Positions 3,160-64,000 of a stretch of 64,000 nt of DNA are shown in pieces. Position numbers and translations under genes: made by a program. Position 1 is the first letter of the stretch, and each line of letters begins with the position of its first letter. Source of the stretch: Rhodoferax sediminis. Its GTDB lineage: Bacteria > Pseudomonadota > Gammaproteobacteria > Burkholderiales > Burkholderiaceae_C. The notes beneath the pieces are model-generated. The model did not search any database, was not told where the DNA came from, and worked only from the letters and a program-made list of their open reading frames with translations. The stretch covers positions 1,563,001 to 1,627,000 of the forward strand of contig NZ_CP035503.1 of assembly GCF_006970865.1 (NCBI RefSeq), written 5' to 3'.

Positions 3160-5796
3160 ATGAGCACACCCACTTTCACCGTTGCCGACATCCGCAAGAC
3201 CTTCCTCGACTTCTTCGCGTCCAAAGGCCACACCGTGGTGCCTTCGAGCTCCCTGGTGCCAGCGAACGACCCGACGCTGATGTTCACCAACTCGGGCATG
3301 GTGCAGTTCAAGGACGTGTTCCTCGGCACCGACAAGCGCAGCTACGTGCGCGCGGCCTCGGTGCAGGCCTGCCTGCGCGCGGGCGGCAAGCACAACGACC
3401 TGGAGAACGTGGGCTACACCGCGCGGCACCACACTTTCTTCGAGATGCTGGGCAACTGGAGCTTCGGCGACTACTTCAAGCGCGAGTCGATCCAGTGGGG
3501 CTGGGAGCTGCTGACCCAGGTCTACAAGCTGCCCGCCGACAAGCTCTGGGCCACGGTCTACATCGACGACGACGAGGCCTATGACATCTGGACCCAGGAC
3601 ATCGGCCTGCCGCCCGAACGCGTGGTGCGCATCGGCGACAACAAGGGCGCGAAGTACGCGTCCGACAACTTCTGGATGATGGCCGACACCGGCCCGTGCG
3701 GCCCGTGCTCCGAGATCTTCTATGACCACGGCGAAGGCATCCCCGGCGGCCCGCCGGGCAGCCCGGACGCCGACGGCGACCGCTATATCGAGATCTGGAA
3801 CCACGTGTTCATGCAGTTCGACATGCAGCCCGATGGCTCGGTGAAACCGTTGCCCGCGCCGTGCGTGGACACCGGCATGGGCCTGGAGCGGCTGGCCGCC
3901 ATCCTGCAGCACGTGCACAGCAACTACGAGATCGATATTTTCGAGGCGCTCATCAAGGCGGCCGCGCGCGAGACCGGTTGCGACGACCTGGGCAACAAGA
4001 GCCTGCGCGTGATTGCCGACCACATCCGCGCCACCGCCTTCCTCGTGAGCGACGGCGTGAATCCGAGCAACGAAGGGCGCGGCTATGTGCAGCGGCGCAT
4101 CATTCGCCGCGCCATTCGCCACGGCTACCAGCTCGGTAAGAAGACGCCGTTCTTCTATAAGCTGGTGCCCGACCTGGTGGCGCTGATGGGCGAGGCCTAC
4201 CCGAACCTCGCGGCCCAGCAGCAGCGCATCATGGACGTACTCATGACCGAAGAGGAGCGCTTCTTCGAAACGCTGGAGCACGGCATGGCCATCCTCGATG
4301 CCGCGCTGGCCGGCGGCACCCAAGTGCTGCCCGGTGAAGTGGCCTTCAAGCTGCACGACACCTTCGGTTTTCCGCTCGATTTGTCGGCCGACGTGTGCCG
4401 CGAGCGCGGCGTGGCGGTGGACGAGGCCGGTTTTCATGCGGCGATGGATCGACAAAAGGCCCAGGCCCGCGCCGCCGGCAAGTTCAAGATGGACCGCGCG
4501 CTCGAATACGCGGGCCTGGGCAACACCTTCATCGGCTACGACCAGCTTGCGCAGACTACCAAAATCGTAGCGCTGTATCAAGACGGGAAGCCGACTGACG
4601 AGCTAAAAGCAGGTCAAGCCGGGGTGGTGGTATTGGCGTCCACGCCGTTTTATGCGGAGAGCGGCGGCCAGGTCGGCGACGAGGGCACCATTGCCAGCGA
4701 CACGGCCCGGTTCGATGTGGCCGACACGCAAAAAATCAAGGCCGATGTGTTCGGCCATCACGGCACGCTGGCGCAGGGCTCGCTCAAGGTGGGCGATGCG
4801 GTGACGGCGCAGGTCGCCACGGCCGTGCGCGCACAAACCATGCGCAACCACAGCGTGACGCACCTGATGCACAAGGCGCTGCGCGAGGTGCTGGGCCCGC
4901 ACGTGCAGCAAAAGGGCTCACTGGTGAATGCGTCGCGCACGCGCTTTGACTTTGCGCACAATGCGCCGGTGTCGAATGCGGACATCGCGGAAATCGAGCG
5001 CCGTGTCAACGCCGAAATCCTGGCCAACTCGGCCACCAGCGCGACGGTGATGGACATTGAGTCGGCCAAAAATTCGGGCGCGATGATGCTGTTTGGCGAA
5101 AAGTACGGCGATGAAGTTCGCGTGCTGGAGATCGGCACCTCCAAAGAACTGTGCGGGGGCACCCACGTGCAGCGCACGGGCGATATTGGCTTCTTCAAGA
5201 TCGTGGCCGAGAGCGGCGTCGCTGCCGGCGTGCGCCGCGTGGAAGCGGTGACGGGCAGCGTGGCGATGGCCTATGTGCAAGAGCTCGAAGCCGCCATGGC
5301 CAAGGCCTCCGCGGCGCTCAAGACGCAGCCTGCGGAACTGGTGACACGGATTGCGCAGGTGCAGGATCAGGTCAGGACGCTGGAAAAGGAAGTCGCAACG
5401 CTCAAGGGCAAGCTGGCGTCCAGCCAGGGCGACGAGTTGATGGCGCAGGCGGTGGATGTCAAGGGCATCAAGGTGCTCGCAGCCCGGCTCGATGGTGCCG
5501 ACGCGAAAACGCTGCGCGATACGCTGGACAAACTCAAGGACAAGCTCAAGACGGCGGCCATCGTGCTCGCCACGGTGGACGGCGACAAGGTGCAGATCGC
5601 GGCCGGCGTGACGGCCGACAGCCTGGGCCGCGTCAAGGCCGGCGAGCTGGTCAACTTCGTGGCGCAACAGGTCGGCGGCAAGGGCGGCGGCAAGCCGGAC
5701 ATGGCCATGGCTGGCGGCACCCACCCGGCGGGCTTGGCGGGGGCGCTGGCGAGCGTGCCGGCCTGGGTGGCCGGCAAGGTTGGAGGTGCTATTTAA
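3160..5796 (+). CDS. alaS: Alanine-tRNA ligase
   Basis: 878 residues, the normal length. The class II catalytic core is at the N-terminus ([17 protein letters not shown], then [15 protein letters not shown]). The editing domain has the zinc-binding [11 protein letters not shown] and [11 protein letters not shown] motifs, and a C-terminal coiled coil and DHHA1-type domain follow. It charges tRNA-Ala and clears mischarged Ser/Gly. Its TAA stop lies inside a 55-bp repeat that continues into the next gene. A weaker repeat-like patch with unusually A+T-rich codons sits inside the gene near 4555-4609. Confidence 0.98.
4555..4609 (+). repeat. 55-bp repeat family A, weak copy inside alaS
   Basis: The left half fits well: ACTAC, 7 bases, GTAGC. 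The right block only partly matches GGGCTACAG. The encoded protein shows no extra residues relative to the AlaS I remember, so this may be chance or a fully assimilated copy. Confidence 0.35.
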
Positions 5797-5842
5797 TGAA
5801 TAGCTATCTGCGCATATGGAACAAGGGCTACAGCACGATATG
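5788..5842 (+). repeat. 55-bp repeat family A, clear copy at the alaS/thioredoxin junction
   Basis: GCTAT, 7 bases, ATAGC, 20 bases, GGGCTACAG. It begins inside the last codons of alaS, supplies its TAA stop (5794-5796), and ends on the ATG at 5840-5842 proposed as the start of the next gene. The repeat therefore makes up nearly the entire junction. Confidence 0.8.
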
Positions 5843-6373
5843 ACTGATATCACGTCGGAGCGGCGGCAGTTTCTCAAACATCTGGCCGTGCTTACTGCGG
5901 CGGGTGCTGGCGCGGCCTGGGCGAAGGATTTTGAAGTTTCGCGCTGGCCTGCCGGGCAGCGCGCACCGTCGTTGCAAGCCGCCGATCTCGACGGCAAAAC
6001 CTGGCGGTTGGCCGACTTGCGCGGCCGCGCGGTGCTGCTCAATTTCTGGGCCAGCTGGTGCCCGCCATGCCGCGCCGAGATGCCGTCGCTGCAGGACATG
6101 GCCGCGATCTACGGGCCCGACAAAATCGTGGTGCTGGCCATCAACTTCAAGGAATCCAGGGCCACGGCCGCGCGCTTTGCGCAGGCGTCGGCCTTGAGTT
6201 TGCCTGTGCTGCTGGACCCCGCGGGCGACATGGCGCGGCAGTGGGGTGCGCGCATTTTTCCCACCACGGTGCTGATCGATGCCACCGGCCAGCCGCGCCA
6301 GCGCGTGCAGGGCGAGGTGGAGTGGACCGGTCAGGCCGCGGAGCAATTGATCGCACCGCTGCTGATGCGTTAA
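5840..6373 (+). CDS. TlpA-like thioredoxin-family protein with twin-arginine-type leader
   Basis: About 177 residues from the ATG at 5840; an alternative ATG is at 5816. The leader has SERRQFLKHL followed by a hydrophobic stretch and AWA, suggesting Tat-dependent export, although the RR context is not a perfect SRRxFLK. The mature part is a TlpA/ResA-like redoxin with WCPPC in FWASWCPPCRAEMP and a cis-proline region FPTTVLID. It probably reduces or oxidises disulfides in periplasmic proteins, for example during cytochrome c maturation. It directly follows alaS. Confidence 0.85.
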   Translation: MTDITSERRQFLKHLAVLTAAGAGAAWAKDFEVSRWPAGQRAPSLQAADLDGKTWRLADLRGRAVLLNFWASWCPPCRAEMPSLQDMAAIYGPDKIVVLAINFKESRATAARFAQASALSLPVLLDPAGDMARQWGARIFPTTVLIDATGQPRQRVQGEVEWTGQAAEQLIAPLLMR

Positions 6374-6403
6374 CGCAGCGAAGGGTCGCCTGGGGCAAGT
6401 TCA

Positions 6404-6453
6404 GCCCCCTCGAGGGGGCAGTGCAGTACGCGAAGCGACAAAGCATGGGGGCC
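6404..6453 (+). repeat. Repeat family B, copy 1 (GC palindrome plus conserved tail)
   Basis: A perfect 16-bp palindrome (GCCCCCTC/GAGGGGGC, 6404-6419) is followed by a tail reading AGTGCAGTACGCGAAGCGAC and then AAAGCATGGGGGCC. A second copy is at 43503-43550. Both are intergenic. The G+C-rich hairpin could act on mRNA ends, but there is no T tract. Confidence 0.75.
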
Positions 6454-8042: not shown

Positions 8043-8043
8043 G
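6925..8043 (+). CDS. IS630-family DDE transposase
   Basis: 372 residues. Helix-turn-helix domains lie at the N-terminus (about residues 30-75, NKEIAGQVGVGRVQVSRWR, and again near SASTVMRHWHAHG). A DDE nuclease core follows, with the acidic residues in CCDEKSQ, LIADNYATHKH and SASWLNMVERFF. The frame is intact, so the element may be active. The last sense codon is also the last triplet of the element (8038-8040). The TAG stop is TA from the target duplication plus a flanking G. The true start could be slightly downstream of 6925. Confidence 0.92.
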   Translation: MLYYEAEWRTQVRVAPEIVLTDEERAELTRLACSKLTSVRLALRARIVLLAAQGLQNKEIAGQVGVGRVQVSRWRERYLESRRAGIERDLPRGAPPVKVDIARLVALTTQSTPAAATHWSTRKMGTELGVSASTVMRHWHAHGLKPHVVRGFKVSRDPKFVEKLEDIVGLYMSPPEHALVLCCDEKSQVQALDRTQPGLPMKKGRAATMTHDYKRNGTTTLFAALNVLDGQVIGQCQQHHTHIEWLKFLRQIDRETPKDKTLHLIADNYATHKHPAVQDWLAKHPRFNMHFTPTSASWLNMVERFFRDITTERLRRGVFTSVPELVTAIDEYVTHHNTNPKPFIWTKSARDILQKVIRANHRLSAKQNGTLH

Positions 8044-12906: not shown

Positions 12907-14031
12907 ATGACCACCGTGCGCCGTACTTTTCTGAAAAATACCGCTGCAGCCTTTGTGGCTGCTGCACTACCCGCTATTAATTTTGCACAGGGCGGCCCGG
13001 CCGCCGATGCCGCGGCGCGCCGCTTCGCGCCCCGGCCTGGCGACTGGCACACCTTCGATGTGACCACGCGGGTCGATATTCTGCTGCCGCAAGGCGCCAC
13101 CCGCGTCTGGCTGCCCATCCCGTGCATCGACAGCGACTACCAGCGCTCGCTGGAGAGCAGCTTTTTCAGCAACGGCAAAACGCAACGCATGGCCGATGGC
13201 CGCTCCGGCGCGCAAATGCTCTACGCCGAGTTCGCTGCGAGCGAGGTCAACCCCTTCGTGGAGCTGACCAGCCGCGTGCAGACGCAAAGCCGCGCCGTGG
13301 ACTGGTCGGCTCGCCAAAGCGCGCGCGAGGATGCCGATACGCTCCAGCACTGGACGCAGCCCACGGCCCTGATACCCACCGACGGGATTGTGAACAAGAC
13401 CGCGCTTGAGGCGACCCGGGGCGCCCACACCGACGTGGAGAAAGTCCGCAAGATCTATGACTGGATCGTGGCCAACACCTACCGCGAGCCCAAGGTGCGC
13501 GGCTGCGGCGAGGGCGACATCAAGACCATGCTCGAGACCGGCAACCTGGGCGGCAAGTGCGCCGACCTGAACGCGCTGTTCGTCGGCCTGAGCCGCGCGG
13601 TGGGCGTGCCGGCGCGTGACCTGTACGGCGTGCGGCTGGCGCCCTCCAGCTTCGGCTACAAGGCGCTTGGGGCCAACCCGGCCGGCCTGCAGCGCGCGCA
13701 GCACTGCCGCTCCGAGGTGTTCCTGAAGGGCCATGGCTGGGTCGCGATGGACCCGGCCGATGTCGCCAAGGTCATGCGCGAGGAGACGCCGCAGTGGATC
13801 AAGAGCACCCGGGGCGGCGTGGTGGCGCCCGTCAACCGGGCACTGTTCGGCGGTTGGGAAGGCAACTGGATGGCCTACAACAGCGCGGCGGACGTGGTGC
13901 TGCCCCACTCGAGCGGCGACAAGCTCGGCTTCTTCATGTACCCCGCAGCCGAAAACGCCGGCGGACGACTGGACCCGTATTCACCCGACGATTTCAGGTA
14001 CCAGATCACGGCCAAAGAGGTCCAGGCCTGA
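12907..14031 (+). CDS. Exported transglutaminase-like domain protein
   Basis: About 374 residues from the ATG at 12907, with GGAG 10 bases upstream. The leader VRRTFLKNTAAAFVAAALPA looks Tat-type. The transglutaminase/cysteine protease-like core has the presumed nucleophile Cys in NLGGKCADLNALFVG. The His is in LKGHGWVAMDPADV, where the following Asp completes a plausible triad. A preceding domain (residues about 50-130) is beta-rich. Function in the periplasm is unknown; such proteins may be peptidases or cross-linking enzymes. It stands alone between the decayed gene and the metal transporter. Confidence 0.82.
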   Translation: MTTVRRTFLKNTAAAFVAAALPAINFAQGGPAADAAARRFAPRPGDWHTFDVTTRVDILLPQGATRVWLPIPCIDSDYQRSLESSFFSNGKTQRMADGRSGAQMLYAEFAASEVNPFVELTSRVQTQSRAVDWSARQSAREDADTLQHWTQPTALIPTDGIVNKTALEATRGAHTDVEKVRKIYDWIVANTYREPKVRGCGEGDIKTMLETGNLGGKCADLNALFVGLSRAVGVPARDLYGVRLAPSSFGYKALGANPAGLQRAQHCRSEVFLKGHGWVAMDPADVAKVMREETPQWIKSTRGGVVAPVNRALFGGWEGNWMAYNSAADVVLPHSSGDKLGFFMYPAAENAGGRLDPYSPDDFRYQITAKEVQA

Positions 14032-17148: not shown

Positions 17149-18101
17149 GAGGAGTCTGGATTGTAGAGATGCCGCCAGGCGCCTGCCCACACGGCCAGTG
17201 CCTCGGCCACCGTGCCTGTGTACTGCGGCAAGCCCAGCACGGCCGCGGCCGCCGCCAGCGCGTTGAAGGCGCCTGCTGCGCTGGCGGTATCGAATGCCTG
17301 CGCACCGTTTTGCTTGGAGAGCTTTTCACCATTCGCCGCGCAGACCAGCGGCGTGTGCAGGTAGGCCGGTGGGGGCAGTTGCAGGGCGCGCTGCAGCAGG
17401 ATCTGGCGCGGCGTGTTGTCCGCCAGGTCCACGCCGCGCACTACGTGGGTGATGCCCTGCGCGGCATCGTCCACCACCACGGCCAGTTGGTAGGCCCAGA
17501 GTCCGTCGGCGCGTTTGAGCACGAAGTCGCCGACCTCGGCGGCCACGTTTTGCTGCTGCGCGCCGAGCCGGCGATCAATCCAGGTAACGATGGGGCCTGC
17601 TATCGAAGGTGTAGCTGATTGCGTAGGTCCAGTAAGGGCTACAGGCACTTTTTCTTCAAACTTCTCCGTGAGGAAGCGCCACGCGCGTGCGCGCCGGCCC
17701 TGCAAGCCGTGGCGGCAGGTGCCGGGGTAGACCAGCTCGGCGTGGCGCGGGCGTTCGACCCCCAGGGCGGCCAGCGCGTCCTCGATGTCCTTGCGCGAGC
17801 AGGCACAGGGGTAGGCGCGGCCCTCGGCGACCAGCGTATCCAGCGCGCGCTGGTACAAGGCTCCGCGCCGCGACTGGACCAGCGGCGGCGCATCGGGCAG
17901 CAAACCGCAAGCCGCGAGTTGCGCCAGGATGATGTGCTCCGCGCCGGCGACGCAGCGCGGCGTGTCCACGTCCTCGATGCGCACCAGCCACTGGCCGCCG
18001 TGCGCGCGCGCATCGAGCCAGCTGGCCAGTGCGGCGACCAGAGAGCCCGCGTGCAGCGGCCCGGTTGGCGACGGCGCGAACCTGCCGATGTAGGCCGTCA
18101 T
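17145..18101 (-). CDS. gluQ: Glutamyl-Q tRNA(Asp) synthetase
   Basis: 318 residues from the ATG at 18101. Class I synthetase motifs are present: HIGH-like [18 protein letters not shown] at the N-terminus and KLSKQNGAQ in place of KMSKS. Zinc cysteines are in [10 protein letters not shown] with CRHG further on. It attaches glutamate to queuosine in tRNA-Asp and lacks the anticodon-binding domain of GluRS, as expected. About residues 150-168 ([20 protein letters not shown]) are encoded by a 55-bp repeat and appear as an extra loop relative to the family as I remember it. Confidence 0.93.
17599..17653 (+). repeat. 55-bp repeat family A, clear copy inside gluQ
   Basis: GCTAT, 7 bases, GTAGC, 20 bases, GGGCTACAG, then GCACTTTTT. 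It shares an uninterrupted run TAAGGGCTACAGGCACTTTT-like with the copy at 27053, apart from one base at its left edge. It is translated in the gluQ frame from the opposite strand. Confidence 0.85.
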
Positions 18102-23406: not shown

Positions 23407-23432
23407 TCCCGTCAGCCAGCCCGATTCACGAT

Positions 23433-23487
23433 GAATTCGGGCTATAGCCCATACCACATCTGCGCATGGCGCTCCTTGTTTTGTAGT
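23433..23487 (-). repeat. 55-bp repeat family A, copy between the pirin operon and dnaE
   Basis: On the minus strand: ACTAC, 7 bases, GGAGC, 20 bases, GGGCTATAG, followed by CCCGAATTC. It is entirely intergenic, 27 bases after the pirin stop. Confidence 0.6.
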
Positions 23488-27043: not shown

Positions 27044-27052
27044 GTTTCAAGA

Positions 27053-27107
27053 GAAAAGTGCCTGTAGCCCTTGAAGGGTCTGAACAGGCAGCTATCAGAA
27101 CAATAGC
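27053..27107 (-). repeat. 55-bp repeat family A, clear copy between dnaE and tolA
   Basis: On the minus strand: GCTAT, 7 bases, ATAGC, 20 bases, GGGCTACAG, then GCACTTTTC. It fills almost the whole 65-base gap between two convergent genes, so it could help separate their transcripts. Confidence 0.85.
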
Positions 27108-29319: not shown

Positions 29320-29759
29320 TGTTTAAGGGTTTCCAGGATGTTGTTCGGAATTTTGGCGGGCTTGAGGGTGGCCGCATTAACCCACCCGATTCGGATGCTG
29401 CCCGTACATAGAAGTTCCACGGGACTGGCGGGTGTCTGCTCGTTTTTTGATAGCACCTGCTGCAGGATGGTCATGGACGCCTGGCCCAATTCGCTTAAAT
29501 TTGCAGTCACCAGCAGTTCGTCGTCGAGGCGTGCCGGCCGGTGGTATTTGACATGCGTTTCCACCACCACGAAGATGCCGCCGCACTCTTCGCGCAGCCG
29601 GTGCTGCCCAATGCCCAGCGAGCGCAGCCACTCGGTGCGCGCGCGCTCGAAAAACTTGAGGTAGTTGGCGTAGAAGACGATGCCGCCCGCGTCGGTATCT
29701 TCCCAGTACACGCGCACGGGCCAGCGGAACACCCGTTCAATCTGAGCGGACCGGCTCAT
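29316..29759 (-). CDS. ybgC: YbgC-type acyl-CoA thioesterase
   Basis: 147 residues, hotdog fold with the 4-hydroxybenzoyl-CoA thioesterase-like active site VYWEDTDAGGIVFYANYLKF. It hydrolyses short acyl-CoA or acyl-ACP and is associated with Tol and phospholipid enzymes. Start at 29759 with GGAGG upstream, right after repeat family C. A weak family A-like patch (29438-29492) lies inside the C-terminal half. Confidence 0.93.
   Translation of the reverse strand: MSRSAQIERVFRWPVRVYWEDTDAGGIVFYANYLKFFERARTEWLRSLGIGQHRLREECGGIFVVVETHVKYHRPARLDDELLVTANLSELGQASMTILQQVLSKNEQTPASPVELLCTGSIRIGWVNAATLKPAKIPNNILETLKQ
29438..29492 (+). repeat. 55-bp repeat family A, weak copy inside ybgC
   Basis: GCTCG, 7 bases, ATAGC at the right spacing, but the third block reads GGACGCCTG rather than GGGCTACAG. 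The corresponding codons are A-rich on the coding strand (CTATCAAAAAACGAG), unlike their surroundings. Confidence 0.35.
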
Positions 29760-29817: not shown

Positions 29818-31014
29818 TGCCAGCATGGCCCGCAGCCGTGCCACTGCGTCCTGCAAGTGCTGCATGGAACTGGCCGTAGAAAAGCGCACGAAGTGGTGCG
29901 TGTCGGCGTTGCCGAAGTCGCGTCCCGGCGTCACCGCCACATGGGCCTGCTTCATGACTTCGAAGGCGAAGTCCCAGCTGTCACGGATACCCAGTTTGCT
30001 GCAGATTTGAGAGCAGTCAGCCCAGGCGTAGAAAGCGCCATCGGGCATGACGGGCACATTCAATCCCATGGCATTGAGGGCCGGGATGAAAAAGTCGCGG
30101 CGCGCCTTGAACTCGGCACGACGGCGTTCGTACTCGGCAATGCTGAGCGCGTCGAAGCAGGCCAGCGCCGCATGCTGCGACACGGTGCTGGCACAGATGA
30201 ACAGGTTTTGCGCGAGCCGCTCGATCACCGGCACCAGCGCCTCGGGCACGACCAGCCAGCCAAGGCGCCAGCCCGTCATGTTGAAGTACTTGGAGAAGCT
30301 GTTGATGCTGATGATGTCGTCATTCAGCGCCAGCGCCGTGTGCCCGAAGGTGTCGTCAAAACTCAGGCCCAGGTAGATCTCGTCGATCAGCGTGATGCCG
30401 CCGCGTGCGCTCACGACCTCGTGGATGCGGCGCAGCTCGTCGGGGTGAATCGAGGTGCCGGTGGGGTTGGATGGCGAGGCCAGCAAAACGCCCCGCGTCT
30501 TGTCGTTCCAGGCGGCCTGTACCTTGTCGGCACTGAGCTGGAAGCGCTCGTTGGCGGAGGTGGGAATCAGCACCGCCGTGCCTTCGGCGGCGCTGACAAA
30601 ATGCCGGTTGCAGGGGTAGCTCGGGTCGGGCATCAGGATCTCGTCGCCCGCCTCGATCAGCGCCAGGCAGGCCAGTTGCAGCGCCGCCGAGGCACCGGCG
30701 GTGACGACGATGCGGCGCGCCGGCACCGCGACGCCAAAGCGCTGCGTGTACCAGTCGCTGATGCGCTCGCGCAGCGGCTCCAGCCCGGTCGCCTGGGTGT
30801 ACTGCGTGGTGCCGTTGCGAATGGCCCGGGCGGCAGCTTCCTGCACCAGCGGTGGCGCGGTGAAGTCCGGCTCGCCAATGTTCAGAAAGATCATGGGCCG
30901 CTCGGTGTGGGCCACTTCGCGGGCCATGGTGGAGGCGGCCTTGGCCACTTCCATCACGTAGAACGGTTCGATGCGCTGGGCGCGTGTGGAGATCTTCAGG
31001 GCGGGTTGTGTCAT
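29815..31014 (-). CDS. Class I/II pyridoxal-phosphate aminotransferase
   Basis: 399 residues. The PLP lysine is in SINSFSKYFNMTGWRLGW; the substrate-pocket ILMPDPSYPCNRHF and SPSNPTGTSIH motifs are those of AspC/AlaA-type enzymes. Transaminates an amino acid with a keto acid; the substrate is not clear. It begins 7 bases after nusB on the same strand. Confidence 0.9.
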   Translation of the reverse strand: MTQPALKISTRAQRIEPFYVMEVAKAASTMAREVAHTERPMIFLNIGEPDFTAPPLVQEAAARAIRNGTTQYTQATGLEPLRERISDWYTQRFGVAVPARRIVVTAGASAALQLACLALIEAGDEILMPDPSYPCNRHFVSAAEGTAVLIPTSANERFQLSADKVQAAWNDKTRGVLLASPSNPTGTSIHPDELRRIHEVVSARGGITLIDEIYLGLSFDDTFGHTALALNDDIISINSFSKYFNMTGWRLGWLVVPEALVPVIERLAQNLFICASTVSQHAALACFDALSIAEYERRRAEFKARRDFFIPALNAMGLNVPVMPDGAFYAWADCSQICSKLGIRDSWDFAFEVMKQAHVAVTPGRDFGNADTHHFVRFSTASSMQHLQDAVARLRAMLA

Positions 31015-40486: not shown

Positions 40487-40502
40487 GGCGTCGTTCCCGT
40501 CA

Positions 40503-43451: not shown

Positions 43452-43502
43452 ACCGAGAACAGGTGGCGGTAATTTTCCGCCGGGCCGCCCCAAGGAAAAT
43501 TG

Positions 43503-43558: not shown

Positions 43559-44803
43559 TTAGCCGTAGACAGGAAAGCGGCGGGTCAGCACATTGACCTT
43601 GGCGCGCACGGCCTCGATGTTGGCGGCGTCGCGCGGGTTGTCCAGCACGTCGGCAATCAGGTGCGCGGTGGCGCGAGCTTCTTCATCCTTGAAGCCGCGC
43701 GTGGTCATGGCCGGGGTGCCGATGCGCACGCCGCTGGTCACCATGGGTTTTTCGGGGTCGTTCGGGATGGCGTTCTTGTTGATGGTCATGTGGGCGCTGC
43801 CCAGCACGGCCTCGGCTTCCTTGCCGGTGATACCCTTGGCGCGCAGGTCGACCAGCATCAGGTGGCTCTCGGTGCGGCCGCTGACGATGCGCAGGCCGCG
43901 CGATACCAGCGTTTCGGCGACGATGCTGGCATTTGTCAGTACTTGCTGCTGATAAGTCTTGAATTCCGGCATCAAGGCCTCCTTGAAGGCCACTGCCTTG
44001 GCCGCGATCACGTGCATCAGCGGGCCGCCCTGCAGGCCCGGGAAGATGGCGCTGTTGATGGCCTTTTCGTGCTGGGCGCGCATCAAAATGACGCCGCCGC
44101 GCGGGCCGCGCAGGCTCTTGTGGGTGGTGGAGGTCACCACGTCGGCGTGCGGCACCGGATTCGGATAGATGCCGGCGGCAATCAGGCCGGCGTAGTGCGC
44201 CATGTCGACCATGAAGATTGCTCCCACGTCTTTCGCCACCTTGGCAAAGCGTGCAAAATCAATAGCAAGAGAATAAGCACTGGCACCGGCTATGATCAGC
44301 TTTGGTTTGGATTCGTGGGCCTTGCGTTCCATCGCGTCGTAGTCGATTTCTTCGCGCTCGTTGAGGCCGTAGCTCACCACGTTGAACCACTTGCCGCTCA
44401 TGTTGAGCGCCATGCCGTGCGTCAGGTGGCCTCCTTCGGCCAGGCTCATGCCCATGATGGTGTCGCCAGGCTTCAAGAAGGCCAGAAACACCGCTTCGTT
44501 GGCCTGCGCGCCAGAATGCGCCTGCACGTTGGCCGCCTCGGCGCCGAAGATCTGCTTGATGCGGTCGATGGCCAGCCGCTCGGCCACATCCACGTATTCG
44601 CAGCCGCCGTAATAGCGCTTGCCCGGATAGCCTTCGGCGTATTTGTTGGTGAGCTGCGTGCCCTGTGCGGCCATGACGGCGGGCGAGGCGTAGTTCTCGG
44701 AGGCGATCAGCTCGATGTGCTGTTCCTGGCGCGCGTTCTCGGCCAGGATGGCGGCCCACAACTCGGGGTCGGTTTGTTCAACGAGGATATTGCGGTGGTA
44801 CAT
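43559..44803 (-). CDS. glyA: Serine hydroxymethyltransferase
   Basis: 414 residues. The PLP-binding lysine is in [18 protein letters not shown]; other landmarks are [14 protein letters not shown] and [14 protein letters not shown]. It converts serine and tetrahydrofolate to glycine and methylene-THF. A patch with rare A+T-rich codons (ATA, TCT, CTT) at 44250-44304 coincides with a weak family A copy. Confidence 0.97.
44250..44304 (+). repeat. 55-bp repeat family A, weak copy inside glyA
   Basis: ATAGC at positions 13-17 and GGCTA at 39-43 of the 55-base frame, with the first block missing. The protein there ([15 protein letters not shown]) is conserved GlyA sequence with no visible extra residues. 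Confidence 0.3.
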
Positions 44804-46669: not shown

Positions 46670-49600
46670 ATGAACCTGCAATCCATCAACAGCAACAAGT
46701 GGGCGCGGCGTGTGGCTTGGACGGCCGCAGGCGTGGTGCTGCTGTGGGGCATCTGCTGGCTGGCGGTGCCGCCCATCCTCAAGAGCCAGGCCCAGAAAAT
46801 AGCCAGCGAGCAGTTGGGGCGCAAGGTCACCATCGGCGCGGTCGATTTCAAGCCCTGGACGCTGGAACTTACGGTCACCGACCTGGCTGTGGCCACCGCC
46901 GATGGGGCCGGGCAGCAGCTGCACGTCCAGCGTCTCTATATAGATGGTGAGTTGCAGTCGATCCTGCGGCTGGCGCCGGTGGTCGATGCCGTCACAGTCG
47001 ATGCGCCGAGCCTCAAACTGACCCGCCTCTCGGAGGGGCACTACGACATTGACGACATCCTGGCCCGGCTGAGCCAGCCGTCCGGTAAGCCGCCCGGCAA
47101 ACCGCTGCACTTCGCGCTGTACAACCTGGCGCTCGATGGCGGCTCCGTGGACTTCACCGACAAGTCGGTCGGCAAAACCCATCAGTTGCGCGATTTGACG
47201 CTGAGCGTGCCGTTCTTGAGCAACCTGGATTCCAAGCGCGGTGTGGTGGTCCAGCCAAGGCTGGCCTTCACGCTCAACGGCAGCCGTTTCGATTCGGCCG
47301 CCGAGGGTACGCCGTTCGCCCAGACCCACAAGCTTGATGCCACCATCAAGCTTGCCGGGTTCGACCTCGCGCCCTATCTGGGCTATATCCCGGCCAGTCT
47401 GCCGGTGCGGCTGCAGACGGGCGTGATCGACACCGACCTGCGCGTGGCATTCGAGCAGACGTCCACCACGTCGGTCAAGCTTAGAGGCACGGTCCAAGCC
47501 AGCCATGTGAAGCTGACCGACGCCAAAACGCGTGACCTGCTGTCGTTCGACGCGCTCAAGCTCACGCTCGCGGACGTGCAGCCGCTGGCACAGCGCGCCA
47601 ACATCTCGTCGATTGAACTGACCGGCCCGAATGTGGCGGTGCGGCGCGATGCGGCAGGGCGGTTCAATGTGGACCTCGCAGCCACGCCGGCGGCCGCCTC
47701 CACCGCACCGGTTGCTACGGAAAGAGGAGCTAAAGGCGAAGATACCACAGGGGCTGCAGCCACAAAAGAAGCCCAAACCAATGCGTGGAAAATCCAAGTT
47801 GACAAGGTTGCCGTGCGCGGCGGGACGGTGGCATGGACCGACGAGACCACCGCTCCCCATGCGCAGCTGGCCCTGCGCGAGCTGGTGTTCGACGCGGCTG
47901 CCATCGCGCTGCCGTTTGCGAAGCCGCTGCAGTTCAGTGGTTCGGCGGTGCTGGCTTCGGTGACTGGCTCCCCCACTGCATCGGCTGCGGCGGCGCCGGC
48001 GAGCCCGTCGCCGCAGGCTGCCAGCCTGAGCTTTGGCGGCGCGGCCACGGACCGCATGGTCAGCGTGGCGGCCAACCTGAAGGCCCTGCCGCTGAGCCTG
48101 GCCGCGCCGTACCTCGCGTCCTTCATCGAACCCGGGCTGAACGGCCAGTTGACGGCCCAGCTGAACGCGGACTGGAAGGCGCCCGCGGCGGGCGCACAGG
48201 CGACCGGTTTGCTGCTCGGCGTGAAACAGCTCACGCTGGAGAATCTGGCGCTCACCGATGGCAAGGCCGTGAGCCAGCCCAGGGCCCCGAATCCGCGCAA
48301 CGCGGCGCTGCCCAGCATCAAGCAGATCGAGGTGGCCGACGCACGGATCGATCTGGACAAACAGACGGTGAGCGTGGGCAAGCTGGCGCTCACCGATCCC
48401 CACGCCAGCGTGGAGCGCGGCGCCGACAAACGCTGGATGTTCGAGCGCTGGCTGAAAAAGCCGGCCGCCTCGGGGGCTCCCCGGGGATCTGCATCAAAAC
48501 GACCTGTAGCCCCCGCCAGGACTTGGCAGATTGCTATCAATGATGTAGCGATCGAGGGTGGCGCCGTATCGTACCGGGACGCCGCCATGCCGCGGCCGGT
48601 GGCCTTCGAAGTATCAAAGCTCACGATCCAGCTGAAGGACTTTGCGCTGGACAGCCAAAAACCCTCACCCCTCACAGCCTCGGCGCGCATCGGGGCGGGA
48701 CGCACGGAGCCCGGCCGGCTGGATTACCACGGCGATCTGGGCTTGAACCCCTTGTCGGCGCAAGGCCAGGTGCAGGCGGTGCGCCTGCCGCTGCACGCGC
48801 TCGAGCCTTACTTTGGCGATGCGCTGAACATCCGACTGTTGCGCGCCGACACCAGCTTCAAGGGGCAGGTGCACTACCTCGAGAGCAAGGCCGGCCCGGT
48901 GGTCAAAGTCACGGGCGACTCTGCGCTGGAGGACTTTCGCGCCAACAGCGTGTTGCCGCCGGGCGTGGCGGCTGTCGCCGCGACGTCGCCCGCCACCGCA
49001 GGGGCTGTGCCCAAAGCCACCACTATGGCGGCGGCCGGCAGCCTGCAACCCGTCAGCGAGCCGCTGCTGCAGTGGAAGGCCCTGAGTGTGCGCGGCCTCG
49101 ACCTGACCATGAAGCCGGGTACTGCCACCCGGGTCAATGTGCGCCAGACCGCGCTCAGCGACTTCTATGCGCGCGTGATCATCAACCCGAACGGGCGCAT
49201 CAACCTGCAGGACCTGGTGAAGTCGTCGGCGCAGCCGGTCGCGGCCGCCGCACCGGCTTCTGGTGCAGCCCCGATCAAGCCCGCGCCCGCTGTGTCGCCT
49301 GCGCCCGCTGCGGGTGGTGCGCTGGCGCCCATTGTCAATATCGGCCCGATCAGCCTGGTCAATGGCAAGGTGCTGTTCTCCGACCACTTCATCAAACCCA
49401 ACTACTCGGCCGACCTGACCGAGCTCACCGGCAAGCTCAGCGCGTTCTCCAGCGTCGCGCCGGCCAGCGCGCCCACCATGGCGGATCTGGAACTGCGCGG
49501 CAAGGCCGAGGGCACGGCCTCGCTGGAGATCACCGGCAAACTCAATCCGCTGGCCAAGCCGCTGGCGCTGGACATCACCGGCAAGGTGCGCGACCTCGAA

Positions 49601-52413: not shown

Positions 52414-52560
52414 CAGGATTTGCGCCCGTTGGGCCAGCCGGCTCGCCGCAATGCAAATCCCGGTGAAAATAGGGGGTTGACCGCCGCCGGCGCAACCGCG
52501 CCGAACGGGGAGTCGGAGCGGTTGTCCGCCGCCACTTGCACAATCACCGACAGATCATTT

Positions 52561-55437
52561 ATGTTCAGCTTTTCCAATCGCAACCCATCCTCCGAAGCGC
52601 CCGCCGTGACCCCTACTTCCACCAAATCCCACGACCCGCACCCGCTGGATGCCCTCACCGGCGGTGCGTTCTCCGCCGCCACTTCGGGCGAGCGCGCGGC
52701 GCGCATCCGTGAATGGCTGACGCGCAACCCGAGCCCCGAGCAGATGCAGGAAGTGTTCAAGGAACTGGGCACGCGCGACAAGGGCGCCGCCAAGCCGCTC
52801 AAGGAAAAGCTCGACGAGCTCAAGCGTGCCAAGGGCCAGGAAATCCTGGCGGCCGAGTGGGCCGGCAAGGGCCAGGCCCTGCTGGCGCTGTCCAAGCTGA
52901 ATATTGCCGACGCCATGGCCTGGCAGCGCGACGCCGCCAAGGCCGGCGCGCCGCTGTCCAAAGAGCCGCTGGCGTCGGTCAAGGTACAACTGGCCGAGCG
53001 CGTCAAGGTGATCGAGGACCTGCAGCACCGCGTGCAGGTGCAGCGCGAAGCCGCCGTGCTGCTGGCGCAGCGCATCGAGGTGCTGTCGACCAAGCCGTGG
53101 CGCGACGCGCAGGCTGTGCTGGAGGTGCTGCATGCTGACGTGCAGCACTGGCAGGCGCAGGCGCAGGAGCTTGCCGCCGATGCCAACTGGTCCAGCGTGG
53201 ACGCCAGGTTCCCGCCGCAACTCGACGCCTCCAAGGCCCAGCTGCTGGTGGTCTGGGATGCCTTTGCGGCCGCGCTGGCGCAGGCCGTGGCCGCGGCCGA
53301 CGATGCCGGCGCAGCGCTGCCGCCCGTGCTGGTGTGGGCCAACGAACTGCGCGCCGAACGCGGCGTGCCGGTGGAAGCGCCCGTGCAAGCGCAGAAACCC
53401 GCGCTGGATCCGGCAGTTCACAACGAAATGCGTGCCAGGGCAGCGCAGGCCGTGCGTGAGGCGCTATCGAAATTGGAGCAAGAGGTGGGCGAAGGCCACG
53501 GCAAGGCCAGTGCTGGCGCGGCCAGCGCGCTGCGCAATGCGCTCAAGGAACACGGCAAGCTGATCGACGCCGCGCTCGAGAACCAGGCCCACGCCGCACT
53601 GGCCGCGGCCGGCGAAATGGAGGGCTGGCAGCGCTGGCGCGCCGACCAGCTGCGCGAGGAACTGGTGATCAAGGCCGAGGGCCTGCTCAAGCGCCCCGCC
53701 GAGCATGCGCTGGGCGGGCGCAAGATGCAGGACCTGCTTCGCCAGATGCGCGAGCAATGGAAGCAGACCGACCAGGGCGGTGCGCCCAACCACGCGCTGT
53801 GGAAGCGCTTCGACGAGGCCTGCAACGAAGCCCACAAGGTAGTGGAAGCCTGGCTCGACAAGGTCAAGGCCGAGGCCGCCGAGCACCGGTTGCAGCGCCT
53901 GGCACTGATCGAAGAGGTCAAGGCCTGGGGCGTGGCCAACGCGGGCCTCACCGACTGGAAGGCCTTCAGCCGCTCGCTGCACCAGTTTGGCGACCGCTGG
54001 CGCGAGGCCGGGCATCTGGGCGAAAAGACCTTCGCCGAGCTGCAGCCGCAGTGGAAAGAAGCCATTCACGGCGCTGCCGCACCGTTCGAGGCCGCGCAAA
54101 AGAGCAGCGTGGAACGCCGCCACGCCCTGATCGAAGAGGCCGTGGTGCTGGGAGCCGCGCCGGTGCTGCGCATCGACGCCGTCAAGGCTCTGCAGCAGCG
54201 CTGGCAGTTGGAGGCCCAAAGCGTGCCACTGGAGCGCAAGTTCGAGCAAAAGCTGTGGGATGCCTTCCGCAAACCGATCGATGACGCCTTCAACCGCAAG
54301 ACCGAGGAGCGCGAAAAGGCGGCGGCATCGTTGAGCGAGCGCGATCGCATCGTGCTGGATGCGGCCAAGGCGCTGGAGGCCGCCAACGCCACTGGCGACG
54401 CCGGCAAAATCCGTGCCGCCATGAGCGCGCTGGACGCCGCGCTGCGCGGCCAGGCGCAGGCCGCCGCCGTGGTGGCCGCTGCCACCGATCGGGAACAAAA
54501 TAGGCCTGTGGCCAAGACAGAGCCTGCACCAGACGCTACGGAAACAGTAGCGGAGCCGGTAAACCCTGCCGCTGTTGAGGCCGTTGCACCTGCAACACCA
54601 GACGCACCCGATGCGCCCGGCGCAGCGGCCGACGAATCCAGGGCCGCAGATACTGCCGGTGACACGGCCGCGCCCGCGGAGCCCTTGGATGCCGTACCCG
54701 CCGCGCCAGCAGTACCTGCCAAACCCGCGCCCAAGCCCGTTGTTGCGATGCGTGGCGACGACCGCCCGGGCATGAAAAAGTCCGAACCTGCGCAGGCGGG
54801 CCGGGGTGGCAAGTTTGGTGATCGCCGCGATGCGCCGCGCGGCGCTGCGCGCCCGGGGGACAACAAGTTCGAGCCGCGCCGCGACGATCGCGGCCCGCGC
54901 CCCGACGCACGCGGTGATGGGCGCGGCGACCCACGCGGTGGCCGCTTTGGCGATCGCCCGGCCTATGAAGAGCGTGGCCCGAGGTTGGGCGACGCGGCCT
55001 TCCGGGCCCAGCGCGAAGCGCTGGAGCGCGCCGAGTTCACCCTCAAGAAGCTCGCCGCGCAGGCCCACGGTGAGGCGCTGACCCAACTGCTCACCGCCTG
55101 GGAAAAGCGCGATGCAAGTCAGGTGCCCAGCGTGCAGGAACTGGGCTCACGCGTCACGGCCGCAGGGCGTGGCCACTGGGCACAGGCGATAGCCGGTGCG
55201 CCCGACGGCGATGCGTCCGAGGCCTTGCTGCGGTTGGAGATAGCTGCCGAAGTGCCGACGCCCGCCGAACACATCAGCGCGCGGCGCATGTTGCAGCTGC
55301 AATTGCTGACCCGGCGCAACGACCCGCCCCCCGCGCAAACCTGGGGTCAGGACACGGCACGCGTACTGGCCAGTGCATTCGACGCCGGCCATGCGCGCCG
55401 CGTGCAAAACGTCCTCAAGGTGCTGCTCAAGCGCTAA
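52561..55437 (+). CDS. DUF349 domain protein with Arg/Gly-rich tail segment
   Basis: About 958 residues from the ATG at 52561 (a longer frame has no good start). Charged helical DUF349 repeats occupy roughly residues 300-640 (NHALWKRFDEACNEAHKVVE; RWREAGHLGEKTFAELQPQW; WDAFRKPIDDAFNRKTEERE). An Ala/Pro-rich linker follows, partly encoded by a 55-bp repeat, then an Arg/Gly/Asp-rich stretch (about 735-815). A helical domain ends in AGHARRVQNVLKVLLKR. DUF349 proteins are poorly characterised; the RG-rich region hints at nucleic acid contact (inference). Confidence 0.85.
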   Translation: MFSFSNRNPSSEAPAVTPTSTKSHDPHPLDALTGGAFSAATSGERAARIREWLTRNPSPEQMQEVFKELGTRDKGAAKPLKEKLDELKRAKGQEILAAEWAGKGQALLALSKLNIADAMAWQRDAAKAGAPLSKEPLASVKVQLAERVKVIEDLQHRVQVQREAAVLLAQRIEVLSTKPWRDAQAVLEVLHADVQHWQAQAQELAADANWSSVDARFPPQLDASKAQLLVVWDAFAAALAQAVAAADDAGAALPPVLVWANELRAERGVPVEAPVQAQKPALDPAVHNEMRARAAQAVREALSKLEQEVGEGHGKASAGAASALRNALKEHGKLIDAALENQAHAALAAAGEMEGWQRWRADQLREELVIKAEGLLKRPAEHALGGRKMQDLLRQMREQWKQTDQGGAPNHALWKRFDEACNEAHKVVEAWLDKVKAEAAEHRLQRLALIEEVKAWGVANAGLTDWKAFSRSLHQFGDRWREAGHLGEKTFAELQPQWKEAIHGAAAPFEAAQKSSVERRHALIEEAVVLGAAPVLRIDAVKALQQRWQLEAQSVPLERKFEQKLWDAFRKPIDDAFNRKTEEREKAAASLSERDRIVLDAAKALEAANATGDAGKIRAAMSALDAALRGQAQAAAVVAAATDREQNRPVAKTEPAPDATETVAEPVNPAAVEAVAPATPDAPDAPGAAADESRAADTAGDTAAPAEPLDAVPAAPAVPAKPAPKPVVAMRGDDRPGMKKSEPAQAGRGGKFGDRRDAPRGAARPGDNKFEPRRDDRGPRPDARGDGRGDPRGGRFGDRPAYEERGPRLGDAAFRAQREALERAEFTLKKLAAQAHGEALTQLLTAWEKRDASQVPSVQELGSRVTAAGRGHWAQAIAGAPDGDASEALLRLEIAAEVPTPAEHISARRMLQLQLLTRRNDPPPAQTWGQDTARVLASAFDAGHARRVQNVLKVLLKR
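54497..54551 (-). repeat. 55-bp repeat family A, copy inside the DUF349 gene
   Basis: On the minus strand: GCTAC, 7 bases, GTAGC, 20 bases, TGGCCACAG, then GCCTATTTT. It is translated as part of EQNRPVAKTEPAPDATETVA in the flexible linker. Confidence 0.65.
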
Positions 55438-55684: not shown

Positions 55685-56057
55685 GAAGGAATCCTCCAGG
55701 ATTCTGGTGAAAGGGCTTGCATACTAGGTCGGCACCCGGTGCAATTCAACTCGTTCGGCAATGAGATTGTCGCGAGTAGTTTTTATCTCTTCGGCATCCA
55801 GAATTGGCGCCGCGCCAACCGTGTCGCCAGACGAACCTGCCCGGCCTGCGCGATCGCGCGGATGCTATTTGTTTGATAGCATGATACACTGATTTTTCAT
55901 GGGCTTGCGCCTGGTTTTGTCTGAAACAGCAGCGCAGCATCTGCCCATGAAAATCGAGTTATGGCGGCAATGGAATATGCACATGACCAGAAGTCATGCA
56001 AACAAACTATTACCCCTTTAACGGGCTGCATCCGGGCGAGCCGCTCCAGTCGGTTCC
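55685..56057. other. Gap between the two DUF433 genes
   Basis: No supported gene. A family A repeat copy lies at 55864-55918. The rest is partly A+T-rich and has no DUF5615-like toxin frame on either strand. Confidence 0.5.
55864..55918 (+). repeat. 55-bp repeat family A, intergenic copy between the DUF433 genes
   Basis: GCTAT, TTGTTTG, ATAGC (a 5-bp hairpin, 7 bp with flanking AT), 20 bases, GGGCTTGCG, then CCTGGTTTT. All spacings match the family. Confidence 0.7.
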
Positions 56058-56264: not shown

Positions 56265-56603
56265 GAAGCAACCCTCCCGGACTGATGAACGGAACGTGAT
56301 CCTAGGGGGGCACCGGTTTTCACGCAACTCCGGCGCGCGACGGTCGGTACAGCTTGCAGCGCACCATTTCGGGTGACTTTCTTGATCGGTTGAACACTTT
56401 CGGGCGCATTCCTGTCGGCGGGCGTGGCGGTCCAACTGGCAGGGTGACTATGGATTTGATAGCCACTCGCGCCCGGCCTGATTGGGCCAAGGCTTGATTT
56501 GGACTGGAATATCTGGGACCGTCTGCCAGTGCCGAATGGCGGCGGCTGGCCACTGAAAAGTCCCCGGAGAAAAACGAATTGTTACTCTTTTATTGATCTG
56601 GAT
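56265..56603. other. Gap between DUF433 copy 2 and mtfA
   Basis: 339 bases without a supported gene. It contains a weaker family A repeat (56447-56501). The stretch just before the mtfA stop is A+T-rich (GTTACTCTTTTATTGATCTG) but has no hairpin typical of a terminator. Confidence 0.5.
56447..56501 (+). repeat. 55-bp repeat family A, intergenic copy near mtfA
   Basis: ACTAT, 7 bases, ATAGC, 20 bases, GGGCCAAGG, then CTTGATTTG. The first two blocks are exact, the third partial. Confidence 0.55.
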
Positions 56604-57407: not shown

Positions 57408-57414
57408 GTGGCGC

Positions 57415-58735: not shown

Positions 58736-58738
58736 GAT

Positions 58739-61561: not shown

Positions 61562-61574
61562 TGCGATTGAACAT

Positions 61575-61629
61575 GTTTTGGCCCTGTAGCCCAGGAAGGT
61601 GCTGCGATGCCTGCTTCTAAAAAGATAGC
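61575..61629 (-). repeat. 55-bp repeat family A, copy at the cysS/glycosylase junction
   Basis: On the minus strand: GCTAT, 7 bases, GAAGC, 20 bases, GGGCTACAG, then GGCCAAAAC. On the plus strand it contains AGGAAGG and the ATG at 61607, giving the next gene its ribosome site and start. Confidence 0.7.
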
Positions 61630-63298: not shown

Positions 63299-63321
63299 CC
63301 ACTGCCGTTCATGAGCAAGTC

Positions 63322-64000
63322 ATGAACACCCGGCTGCTGGACGCCATGCGGGCCTTCTCGCCCGGCCTGCCGCTGGGTGTGGCCTACAGCGGCGGGGCCG
63401 ACTCCACCGCGTTGCTGCTGGCCTGCGCCGAGAAGTGGCCGGGGCAGGTGAGGGCGCTGCATATTCACCATGGTCTGCAGGCGGCGGCGGATGAATTCGA
63501 GCAGCACTGCATCGCGTTTTGCGCACGACTCGGGGTGCCGCTGGTGGTGCGGCGCGTGCACGCGCGTCATGCGCCAGGGCAAAGTCCGGAAGACGCCGCG
63601 CGCACTGCACGTTATGAGGCTTTCAGGGCTGTAGCCCTTGAGGAGTGGGCGCAGTATGCTATTACTAACATAGCAATTGCGCAGCACGCCGACGACCAGG
63701 TCGAGACGCTGCTGCTGGCGCTCACGCGCGGCGCGGGCCTGCCGGGCCTGAGTGCGATGCCCGCGCGCTGGGACCGCGACGGCATCACCTACCACCGCCC
63801 GCTGCTGGGCGTGCCTGCCCCGGAGATTCGCGCCTGGCTGCGCGAGCGTGGCGTCGCCTTCATTGATGACCCGAGCAACGCCAACGAGCAATTCACGCGC
63901 AACCGCATCCGCGCGCGGTTGCTGCCCGCGCTCGACGCGGCCTTCCCGCAGTTCCGCGAGACCTTTGCGCGCAGCGCGGCGCATGCGGCGCAGGCGCAGG
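63322..64000 (+). CDS. tilS: tRNA(Ile)-lysidine synthetase, N-terminal part (runs off the window)
   Basis: 226 codons visible from the ATG at 63322; an ATG at 63311 is closed after four codons. The PP-loop is VAYSGGADSTALLLAC. The conserved IAQHADDQVETLLLALTRGA and FIDDPSNANEQFTRNRIR follow. Modifies C34 of tRNA-Ile(CAU) so that it reads AUA. Residues about 100-118 (AFRAVALEEWAQYAITNIAI) are encoded by a 55-bp repeat. Confidence 0.95.
   Translation, partial: MNTRLLDAMRAFSPGLPLGVAYSGGADSTALLLACAEKWPGQVRALHIHHGLQAAADEFEQHCIAFCARLGVPLVVRRVHARHAPGQSPEDAARTARYEAFRAVALEEWAQYAITNIAIAQHADDQVETLLLALTRGAGLPGLSAMPARWDRDGITYHRPLLGVPAPEIRAWLRERGVAFIDDPSNANEQFTRNRIRARLLPALDAAFPQFRETFARSAAHAAQAQ
63620..63674 (-). 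repeat. 55-bp repeat family A, clear copy inside tilS
   Basis: On the minus strand: GCTAT, 7 bases, ATAGC, 20 bases, GGGCTACAG, then CCCTGAAAG. It is translated in frame just before the conserved IAQHADDQ motif of TilS. Confidence 0.85.

Follow-up and report, generated by a model that had tools for sequence, protein, structure and literature searches.

A rigidly spaced 62-bp motif dispersed through the genomes of Rhodoferax sediminis and other Comamonadaceae, with features of a DNA uptake signal

A 64,000-nucleotide stretch of the chromosome of Rhodoferax sediminis (NCBI RefSeq assembly GCF_006970865.1, contig NZ_CP035503.1, positions 1,563,001 to 1,627,000 of the forward strand; hereafter "the window", its positions being counted from its first letter) contains a motif that recurs in both orientations, which raises the question of what kind of element it is and what keeps it in place. 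The initial annotation had described it as a dispersed 55-bp repeat of fixed length with strongly diverged spacers, an old, still spreading or structurally constrained element. We find that the motif is a rigidly spaced, loosely spelled unit of ca. 62 bp, present in about 800 copies genome-wide. We consider it most likely, with a probability of roughly 0.4, to be a genome-wide signature with a trans-acting reader, resembling an uptake signal and maintained by biased transformation.

The R. sediminis genome was analyzed as one contig of 4,387,497 bases. An ungapped profile of 72 columns was refined on the window and on twenty 20-kb stretches (L059-L078) across the chromosome, and each match scoring >14 was counted as a copy. 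This profile gave 17 copies in the window and 91 matches in 464 kb, against none in Markov-3 DNA and none in reversed DNA, and only two scores in the real 464 kb fell between 10 and 20, so that the repeat held up in a scan against shuffled sequence. The window had been picked for its copies and was, therefore, excluded from the copy estimate and from the island comparison below; the 75 copies in the 400 kb outside it correspond to ca. 820 per 4.39-Mb genome. Set against their controls, the pattern and profile scans thus both show dispersed copies, in either orientation, beyond chance. Sites of the form GCTAY-N7-RTAGC number 274 in this genome versus 60 in the reversed control, and among the 150 matches listed for the chromosome 72 lie on the plus and 78 on the minus strand.

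The spacing of the motif is fixed. In the window, RCTAY-Nk-RTAGC occurs at k = 7 only (9 forward matches), with none at k = 3-6 or 8-12. When the left and right halves of the motif were located independently, 78 of 83 pairs shared one offset, and a model that permits insertions and deletions found that 148 of the 150 matches listed for this genome span exactly 72 bases; the fixed length and strongly diverged spacers noted originally are thus confirmed. A gapless alignment of 62 copies was not counted in this respect, because its copies had been chosen by the ungapped profile. The A/T box alone lies at the expected offset in 57 of 150 cases, one base off in 43 and at +10 to +12 in 28, a blurring that is due to its low complexity. 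The boxes are, in order, GCTAY, an A/T tract, RTAGC, a GC-rich middle, GGGCT or GCGCT, and a second A/T tract, and the consensus of the own genus, with strong positions in capitals, reads cggtTGCTAC.aAtTTgATAGCtgcctGCGCAggc.cggCAaGGGCTacaGcCcgATTTggctc.aAA. Information is spread over about 62 bp and very unevenly across the columns. The strongest dependences between columns, measured by information, are those between neighbors, in the A/T tracts and in AA/GG choices.

The motif extends well beyond R. sediminis, the nearest named relative of which, by RsmA, is a Rhodoferax metagenome-assembled genome (MAG; 93%). Counts of matches per genome are lower bounds throughout, taken from the matches listed or scored (150, 124, 31 or 24). 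With model R2, at least 69 of 160 genomes of the family had a match and 91 had none among the matches scored; at least 19 of the 31 matches scored were found in 49 genomes, 4-13 in four and 1-3 in 16. Genomes of the family, that is, mostly carry many copies or none. Several genomes (G060, G064, G161, G276, G346, and others) have one or two strong matches and are otherwise motif-free, and may have received DNA from carriers. Across the order, at least nine of 200 genomes had a match: the four richest and two poorer ones are Comamonadaceae, and three genomes of other families had one match each. Model R1 gave no match among those scored in 16 genomes from 16 other families. An occurrence in Comamonadaceae had been suspected from the start, and both these family genomes and the loci around rsmA carry the motif.

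Eighty such loci (1.42 Mb), 55 of them with a usable genus label, contain 144 copies against 0 in reversed DNA; genus names here are those of the record titles, many of which belong to MAGs. Copies were found in Rhodoferax (36 in 216 kb), Acidovorax (32 in 203 kb), Polaromonas (25 in 188 kb), Paracidovorax (6 in 41 kb), Xylophilus (3 in 21 kb), and Ramlibacter (2 in 47 kb), and none at the loci of Hydrogenophaga (104 kb), Variovorax (62 kb), Caenimonas (42 kb), Pseudacidovorax (41 kb), Limnohabitans (35 kb), and Xenophilus (19 kb). The genera have their own dialects: other genera of the family share the frame and change the middle letters, e.g., GCTAY..AATt.ATAGCTGCtaGCGCTTG..GgaCAAGCGCTaGaGGCC.ATTTgattcaaAA, and the Polaromonas dialect reads GCGCCCGT....ATGGGCTAgAGGCC. 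On a tree of RsmA (one gene, with the motif-bearing segment included and five loci of <10 kb excluded), on which a locus with one copy in 10-21 kb was scored as a carrier, carriage changes 8 times versus a mean of 23.3 after shuffling, with 0 of 500 shuffles as low. Nested among the carriers is a supported clade of three non-carriers (L158, L176, and L183, with the titles Polaromonas and Rhodoferax), in which no score exceeds 7.5 in 55 kb; ca. 9 copies would be expected at Rhodoferax density. Their rsmA site has the same length, with the motif letters eroded. The motif was apparently lost in this clade. Whatever allows a genome to carry the motif would seem open to loss.

The motif is tied to the core genome and scarce in acquired DNA, as judged from one island, parts of two plasmids, and one accessory and one core stretch. 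The island, of 88 kb (G000:C1:1628691-1716629; L086-L090), is absent from the sister genomes G001 and G002 and holds two copies, where the density in the 400-kb sample would predict 16.5 (binomial p = 4e-5). The depletion also appears against the 184 kb surrounding it, a comparison that includes the chosen window (p = 1.3e-4), and is not significant against the adjoining 32 kb outside the window, which has three copies (p = 0.12). This island begins beside a tRNA-Ser gene and encodes a tyrosine integrase, a DUF3987 protein and an N6/N4 DNA methylase. The copy-free stretch L073 has scattered matches in four sister genomes, of at most 1.1 kb and 65-75%; L070, with seven copies, is mostly syntenic with G002 at 90-96%. 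An Acidovorax plasmid has three copies in the 150 kb sampled versus 32 in 203 kb at Acidovorax chromosomal loci (p = 1e-5), and a Diaphorobacter plasmid has two in 100 kb. A consensus probe, which is weak for so degenerate a motif, matched 3 of 72,556 plasmid records and 0 of 50,697 phage records, and the exact core pattern, likewise a weak probe, matched four viral contigs.

Between sister species the motif shows both conservation and change. In orthologous copies, which were required to score >12, a choice that favors conserved motif columns, the strong columns differ from G002, G001, G004, and G005 at 4.8, 21, 7.5, and 15% of positions. In the weak columns of these copies the corresponding values are 10, 39, 21, and 28% (strong versus weak p = 0.022, 0.001, 0.001, and 0.006), and in the flanks 7.9, 22, 14, and 19%. 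The motif was found at the orthologous place in 13 of 13 cases in G002, 7 of 16 in G001, 7 of 8 in G004, and 7 of 8 in G005; one of the "lost" sites (G004, 63608) sits at a contig end. Turnover of the motif between sister species is real.

These distributions bear directly on the main rival to an uptake-like signature, namely that the copies are bound by a nucleoid protein, chromosome-organizing or of another kind, for which numerous scattered sites are required, and that selection and not uptake bias keeps them. The rigid layout of several boxes, the A/T tracts, the occurrence in either orientation and all over the chromosome, and the scarcity on the island and the plasmid would all be accounted for. 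However, no clear chromosomal polarity is seen among the 150 matches listed, although one 0.4-Mb bin is poor (3 of 150), many genera and the nested clade L158/L176/L183 live without the motif, and the sister G001 keeps only 7 of 16 orthologous places, which is more turnover than a needed site suggests. We regard this explanation as unlikely, yet as one to be taken seriously.

How individual copies arose can be examined within genes, which were called with a home-made gene caller. For 97 copies of R. sediminis, 58 lie inside predicted genes (78.5 expected), 26 are intergenic (10.6), 10 lie over 3' ends (4.2), and 3 over 5' ends (3.6); the 58 genic copies comprise 22 on the strand of the gene and 36 antisense to it. 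Some fall within conserved enzymes, viz. PurK (score 59.9), TilS (53.5), RsmA (38.6), ArgC (37.7) and, weakly, serine hydroxymethyltransferase (24.7); a copy in uup (L025), weak as well (20.5), was set aside as an example. The net length of these enzymes differs from the best-scoring family model by 0 (PurK), 0 (TilS), +4 (ArgC), +2 (RsmA), and -2 (serine hydroxymethyltransferase), with -3 for TilS against a second model and up to +9 for PurK against other models. In the 58 genic copies rare codons make up 37.0% inside the motif versus 7.4% in the flanks and are more frequent inside in 56 of the 58 (p = 5e-11); the same holds for 18 of 19 copies in G021 and 15 of 16 in G002.

Of 27 distinct genic-frame sites followed over relatives, 20 have motif-less orthologs. 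The median length difference between these and the nearest carrier is 0 at 11 sites and at most 2 amino acids at 13. It approaches the whole unit (-17 and -21 amino acids) at two, of which L180:15945 is intergenic, and lies in between at five. Single alignments agree within 2 amino acids in 345 of 947 cases and reach -15 or beyond in 13. In rsmA, the same 26-residue segment bears the motif in Rhodoferax, Acidovorax Leaf160 (weakly, 14.2), Paracidovorax wautersii (20.9), and a Xylophilus MAG (26.2), and occurs without it in Variovorax (L132 and L136) and Hydrogenophaga (L153, L163, L166, and L171). At L127:14971 a carrier and a non-carrier both encode VLSAIGLRA in different spelling, and at L123:15908 eight gapless sequences span scores from -22 to 42. 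Intergenic sites are mixed, some losses being gapless and others involving 31-72 gap letters. Many copies, then, look as if they grew in place and were not pasted in. Within genes, the alignments show that substitution is common, that short insertions help, and that insertion of the whole unit is the exception.

This has to be set against a second rival, an old mobile palindromic element of the kind of miniature inverted-repeat transposable elements (MITEs), repetitive extragenic palindromes (REPs) or the Rickettsia palindromes, with copies that have since decayed or been retained as binding sites. Dispersal in both orientations would fit such an origin, as would the intergenic and 3'-end excess and the genic deficit of the 97 copies, the near whole-unit difference at 2 of 20 genic-frame sites and the gap letters at some intergenic losses. 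A Y1 (RAYT-like) transposase domain is, moreover, present in 18 of 19 carriers versus 7 of 11 non-carriers (p = 0.047). This link is only a weak tendency, however, and the strong carrier G149 is without the domain. The copies within each of seven genomes are about equally unlike one another (mean identity 0.45-0.52, maximum 0.65-0.81), and no recent duplicate pairs were found among the copies of these genomes; the sole identical pair was discounted, as it is one site, G002:C2:19722, present in both L080 and L040. Column information is very uneven, unlike plain decay, 13 of 20 genic sites show no length change, and few copies lie on the island and the plasmid, the kind of DNA in which mobile elements tend to accumulate. 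The mobile origin is improbable, and the still spreading, copied element of the initial annotation is not supported, given no recent duplicates in the seven genomes and no added length at 13 of 20 genic sites. The carrier G021 has 20 matches to the Y1 transposase domain, several with the same score, which points to a multi-copy IS200-like family.

A motif that is rigid, overrides codon preference, turns over in place at many sites, forms dialects, mostly occurs in plenty or not at all, and has apparently been lost in a nested clade argues for a trans-acting reader, and uptake signals are favored because, among the systems known, they fit this set of features best. We infer both the existence of such a reader and its role in DNA uptake. 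A trans-acting factor would maintain a double-stranded recognition motif of ca. 62 bp at roughly 800 places. Many copies would arise over existing sequence by point substitution, others aided by short insertions, in either orientation and despite rare codons. A competence receptor would prefer motif-bearing DNA, so that fragments of relatives with the motif would be taken up and recombined more often, and the motif would then build up in core genes, drift into genus dialects and erode once the reader was lost. Verminephrobacter eiseniae, also of the Comamonadaceae, has been described as naturally transformable via type IV pili, and its authors suspected a sequence preference (PMC4212676).

Several observations weigh against the uptake reading. 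The analysis turned up no receptor, and the distribution of the competence genes that were checked does not follow that of the motif: ComEC is present in all of 14 carriers and in 11 of 13 non-carriers, and a pilin of the ComP_DUS family in 27 of 27 genomes, carriers or not, so that neither, as a candidate for the trans-acting factor, discriminates between the two groups. The motif is far longer than known uptake sequences, its information extending over about 62 bp where shortness would be expected. Such sequences are short, about 9-30 bp, and the density of the motif, ca. 0.19 per kb, is sparser than is usual for them. Any slowly gained, vertically inherited motif would be scarce in acquired DNA, and any A/T-rich stretch read in frame would also yield rare codons; the codon excess, therefore, shows a cost and not a cause. 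Length is not always preserved: 7 of 20 genic sites have differences of -2.5 to -21 amino acids, single alignments differing by more than 2 amino acids amount to 602 of 947, the linker that holds the copy in the rsmA gene of R. sediminis exceeds the usual length by 8 residues, and at L126:5991 the right part of the motif sits on a 27-nt insertion, the left arm being built from native RYFRI codons. Finally, strong columns compared with flanks gave p = 0.07, 0.92, 0.03, and 0.31 for G002, G001, G004, and G005 and are clearly lower for G004 only. Of the constraint proposed initially a part is seen: motif letters differ less between sister species than the spacers of the same copies, though not clearly less than flanking DNA.

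Two observations on the competence genes themselves may be added. A ComP_DUS-family pilin is encoded in the window (35679-35936, -), adjoining a 1511-amino-acid open reading frame (ORF; 36020-40555), possibly as part of a minor-pilin cluster. In the carrier G009, which has the lowest motif information content of the seven genomes, the ComEC domain lies in three reading-frame pieces (G009:C1:1836740-1837544), which may be an assembly error.

In its fullest form the uptake reading would imply a third, independent lineage of sequence-specific DNA self-recognition. Rhodoferax, Acidovorax, Polaromonas, and further Comamonadaceae would possess a new receptor and take up or recombine DNA bearing a 62-bp multi-box signal; biased transformation would have spread this signal over hundreds of genes, in genus dialects, and recent losses would serve as natural experiments. 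We put this forward tentatively, at odds well short of even. A self-marker for a defense or DNA-processing system, Chi-like or an exclusion signal and not one of uptake, would likewise favor chromosomal DNA over island and plasmid DNA, and no phage record matched at the sensitivity of our search, but orientation is balanced here and no system was identified. Chi-like signals are, moreover, short and strand-biased, and such a marker seems quite improbable. Recognition probably takes place at the level of DNA and not of RNA, because orientations are balanced or mixed and there is no covariation. The small hairpin that the first two blocks had been thought to form is not supported, and a hairpin or RNA element was rejected on this ground: its arms show no covariation and pair no better than permuted ones, the commonest combination at the fifth arm position is C-A (38 of 97 copies), and RNAalifold found no structure in the motif copies. 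In dialect 2 two pairs, a middle one (31-43) and 58-66, are equaled in 9-10 of 1000 permutations. The excess at gene 3' ends and the dialect 2 inverted repeat AGCGCTTG-N5-CAAGCGCT followed by an A/T tract would suit a transcription terminator or a cis-acting RNA element, but this is largely refuted as a general function and very improbable: 58 of 97 copies fall inside genes, with 36 of these antisense, arm 1 shows no covariation, and no Rfam family overlaps the motif in the window at the gathering threshold.

If the motif is an uptake signal, its nearest counterparts are found in two other families. The DNA uptake sequences (DUS) of Neisseriaceae have been described as occurring in many copies inside and between genes, with ties to the core genome, dialects that follow phylogeny, and links to terminators (Frye et al., 2013, PMC3630211; Treangen et al., 2008, as summarized in PMC4212676). 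As far as these accounts go, the present motif is alike in its copies inside and between genes, its core-genome ties, its dialects, and its link to 3' ends. It differs in that DUS have 10-12 bp with a 3-bp core, whereas the motif has several boxes spread over ca. 62 bp, is spelled more loosely, and belongs to another family; it is also known from sequence alone, and ComP-like pilins do not track its carriage. The uptake signal sequences of Pasteurellaceae consist of a core and A/T tracts at fixed spacing, have spread by substitution through coding DNA, and measure about 30 bp with about one copy per kb. Their build and spread are similar, but the boxes differ and they are shorter and denser. 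Even among uptake signals, the length and multi-box build would thus be unusual. Should the motif prove to be an uptake signal, the range of sequence-specific transformation would widen to include a large family of bacteria from fresh water and soil, and the dialects, gains, and nested losses would make the old question of the origin of such signals, by selection or molecular drive, testable by comparison. Whatever the reader, a previously unrecognized pattern at the DNA level influences the choice of codons in hundreds of places, a point to be considered when genomes of the carrier genera are annotated or tested for selection and when their strains are engineered.

Parts of the motif may have been seen before. 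Tong, Schliekelman and Mrazek (2017; PMC5217627) scanned 569 genomes and found the largest number of significant spaced 5-mer pairs (140) in Rhodoferax ferrireducens T118, and in Polaromonas naphthalenivorans CJ2 they listed ATAGCT(N)22CAAAAG with 125 copies, 81% of which are intergenic, with no function given in the available text. This pair falls in register on motif columns 18-23 and 46-51, from which we infer that the spaced pairs are parts of the 62-bp motif; it has 0 exact matches in the 167 kb of Polaromonas loci scanned. Their description, in the same portion of the paper, concerns pairs of 5-mers only; a unit of 62 bp, its evolution in place, its spread, and its function do not appear in it. 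The available text of the genome paper of R. ferrireducens (PMC2755013) mentions CRISPR repeats as the only repeats found. In the open-access papers searched we found no description of the whole 62-bp unit and none that mentions both DNA uptake sequences and Comamonadaceae. The case shows that repeat finders built to detect similar copies miss motifs with rigid spacing and low pairwise identity.

Other short, dispersed repeats differ from the motif in kind. REP/RAYT elements, MITEs, and Rickettsia elements, some of which lie in frame within proteins, are inserted copies of recent shared ancestry, whereas the motif has no recent pairs. The GTAG/CGTC REPs (PMC3733652) were set aside; none of the six genus and class names sought occurs in that paper. 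The betaproteobacterial repeat element (BRE) is listed as a dispersed repeat for Rhodoferax, Polaromonas, Acidovorax, and others, with some copies in genes, and is described as about 90 bp long, with 69% GC in Bordetella, often tandem, and found at >70% identity (Hot et al., 2011, PMC3110155). The motif does not answer to this picture of a GC-rich, tandem unit of ca. 90 bp with copies >70% identical, and BRE was rejected as its identity. A separate GC-rich repeat of ca. 80 bp, the copies of which are 79-96% identical, serves as an example of a copied repeat in this genome. It occurs at L070:12525-12620 and in the window at 6372-6452 (-) and 43482-43549 (-), in tandem at L076:12935-13096, and also in G002 and G004. 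In look and in having tandem copies it resembles BRE as described by Hot et al. (2011), a match made by description and not by sequence.

Within the window, the ten copies that the initial annotation had called clear are all present and in register, with profile scores of 42-62. Of its six weak copies, those at 29438 (39.5), 56447 (39.6), 44250 (24.7), and 34195 (24.4) stand, the one at 4555 is borderline, and the one at 46189 was not recovered above 12; the latter had also been matched by an early, overfitted 90-column profile and did not survive the 72-column one. Three copies had been overlooked (12928, 29998, and 53418). Several copies lie at or beyond gene ends. The copy at 5788..5849 (+, 61.7) gives the stop codon of the alanyl-tRNA synthetase ORF (3160-5796), and the ORF 5816-6373 begins inside it. 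One copy lies between a pirin-like ORF (to 23406) and dnaE (from 23513), at 23426..23487 (-, 53.1), and another between dnaE (to 27043) and tolA (27109-28158, -), at 27046..27107 (-, 58.3). The copy at 61568..61629 (-, 42.4) lies directly past cysS (60173-61561), and that at 55864..55925 (+, 49.8) 0.4 kb past a DUF349 ORF, with no ORF of at least 100 amino acids across it. Near predicted starts are the copies at 12928..12989 (-, 37.8), close to the start of a predicted coding sequence, and at 56447..56508 (+, 39.6), which overlaps the start of the ORF 56499-57818 as listed.

The other copies in the window fall within genes, apart from the borderline one at 4555..4616 (+, score 12.5, under the threshold of 14). 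Predicted coding sequences contain those at 17599..17660 (+, 51.5), 29438..29499 (+, 39.5), 34188..34249 (-, weak, 24.4), and 29998..30059 (+, 27.8), at the last of which the sister G001 is without the motif, gaplessly. The gene of a DUF748 protein (46670-50590) has a copy in a linker at 47714..47775 (+, 45.8) and another at 48488..48549 (-, 54.1) that overlaps the protein segment WQIAINDVAIEGG, and the gene of the DUF349 protein (52420-55437) has copies at 53418..53479 (-, 26.3) and, in a linker, at 54490..54551 (-, 42.6). A weak copy at 44250..44311 (+, 24.7) is antisense in the serine hydroxymethyltransferase gene (43559-44803, -), and that at 63613..63674 (-, 53.5) is antisense in tilS (L079:6323-7273), which extends beyond the window.

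The window also encodes an IS630-family transposase (6925-8043), in a motif-poor stretch, and a ZMP/ZTP riboswitch (RF01750, 44849-44979, -, 54.4 bits) upstream of the serine hydroxymethyltransferase gene.

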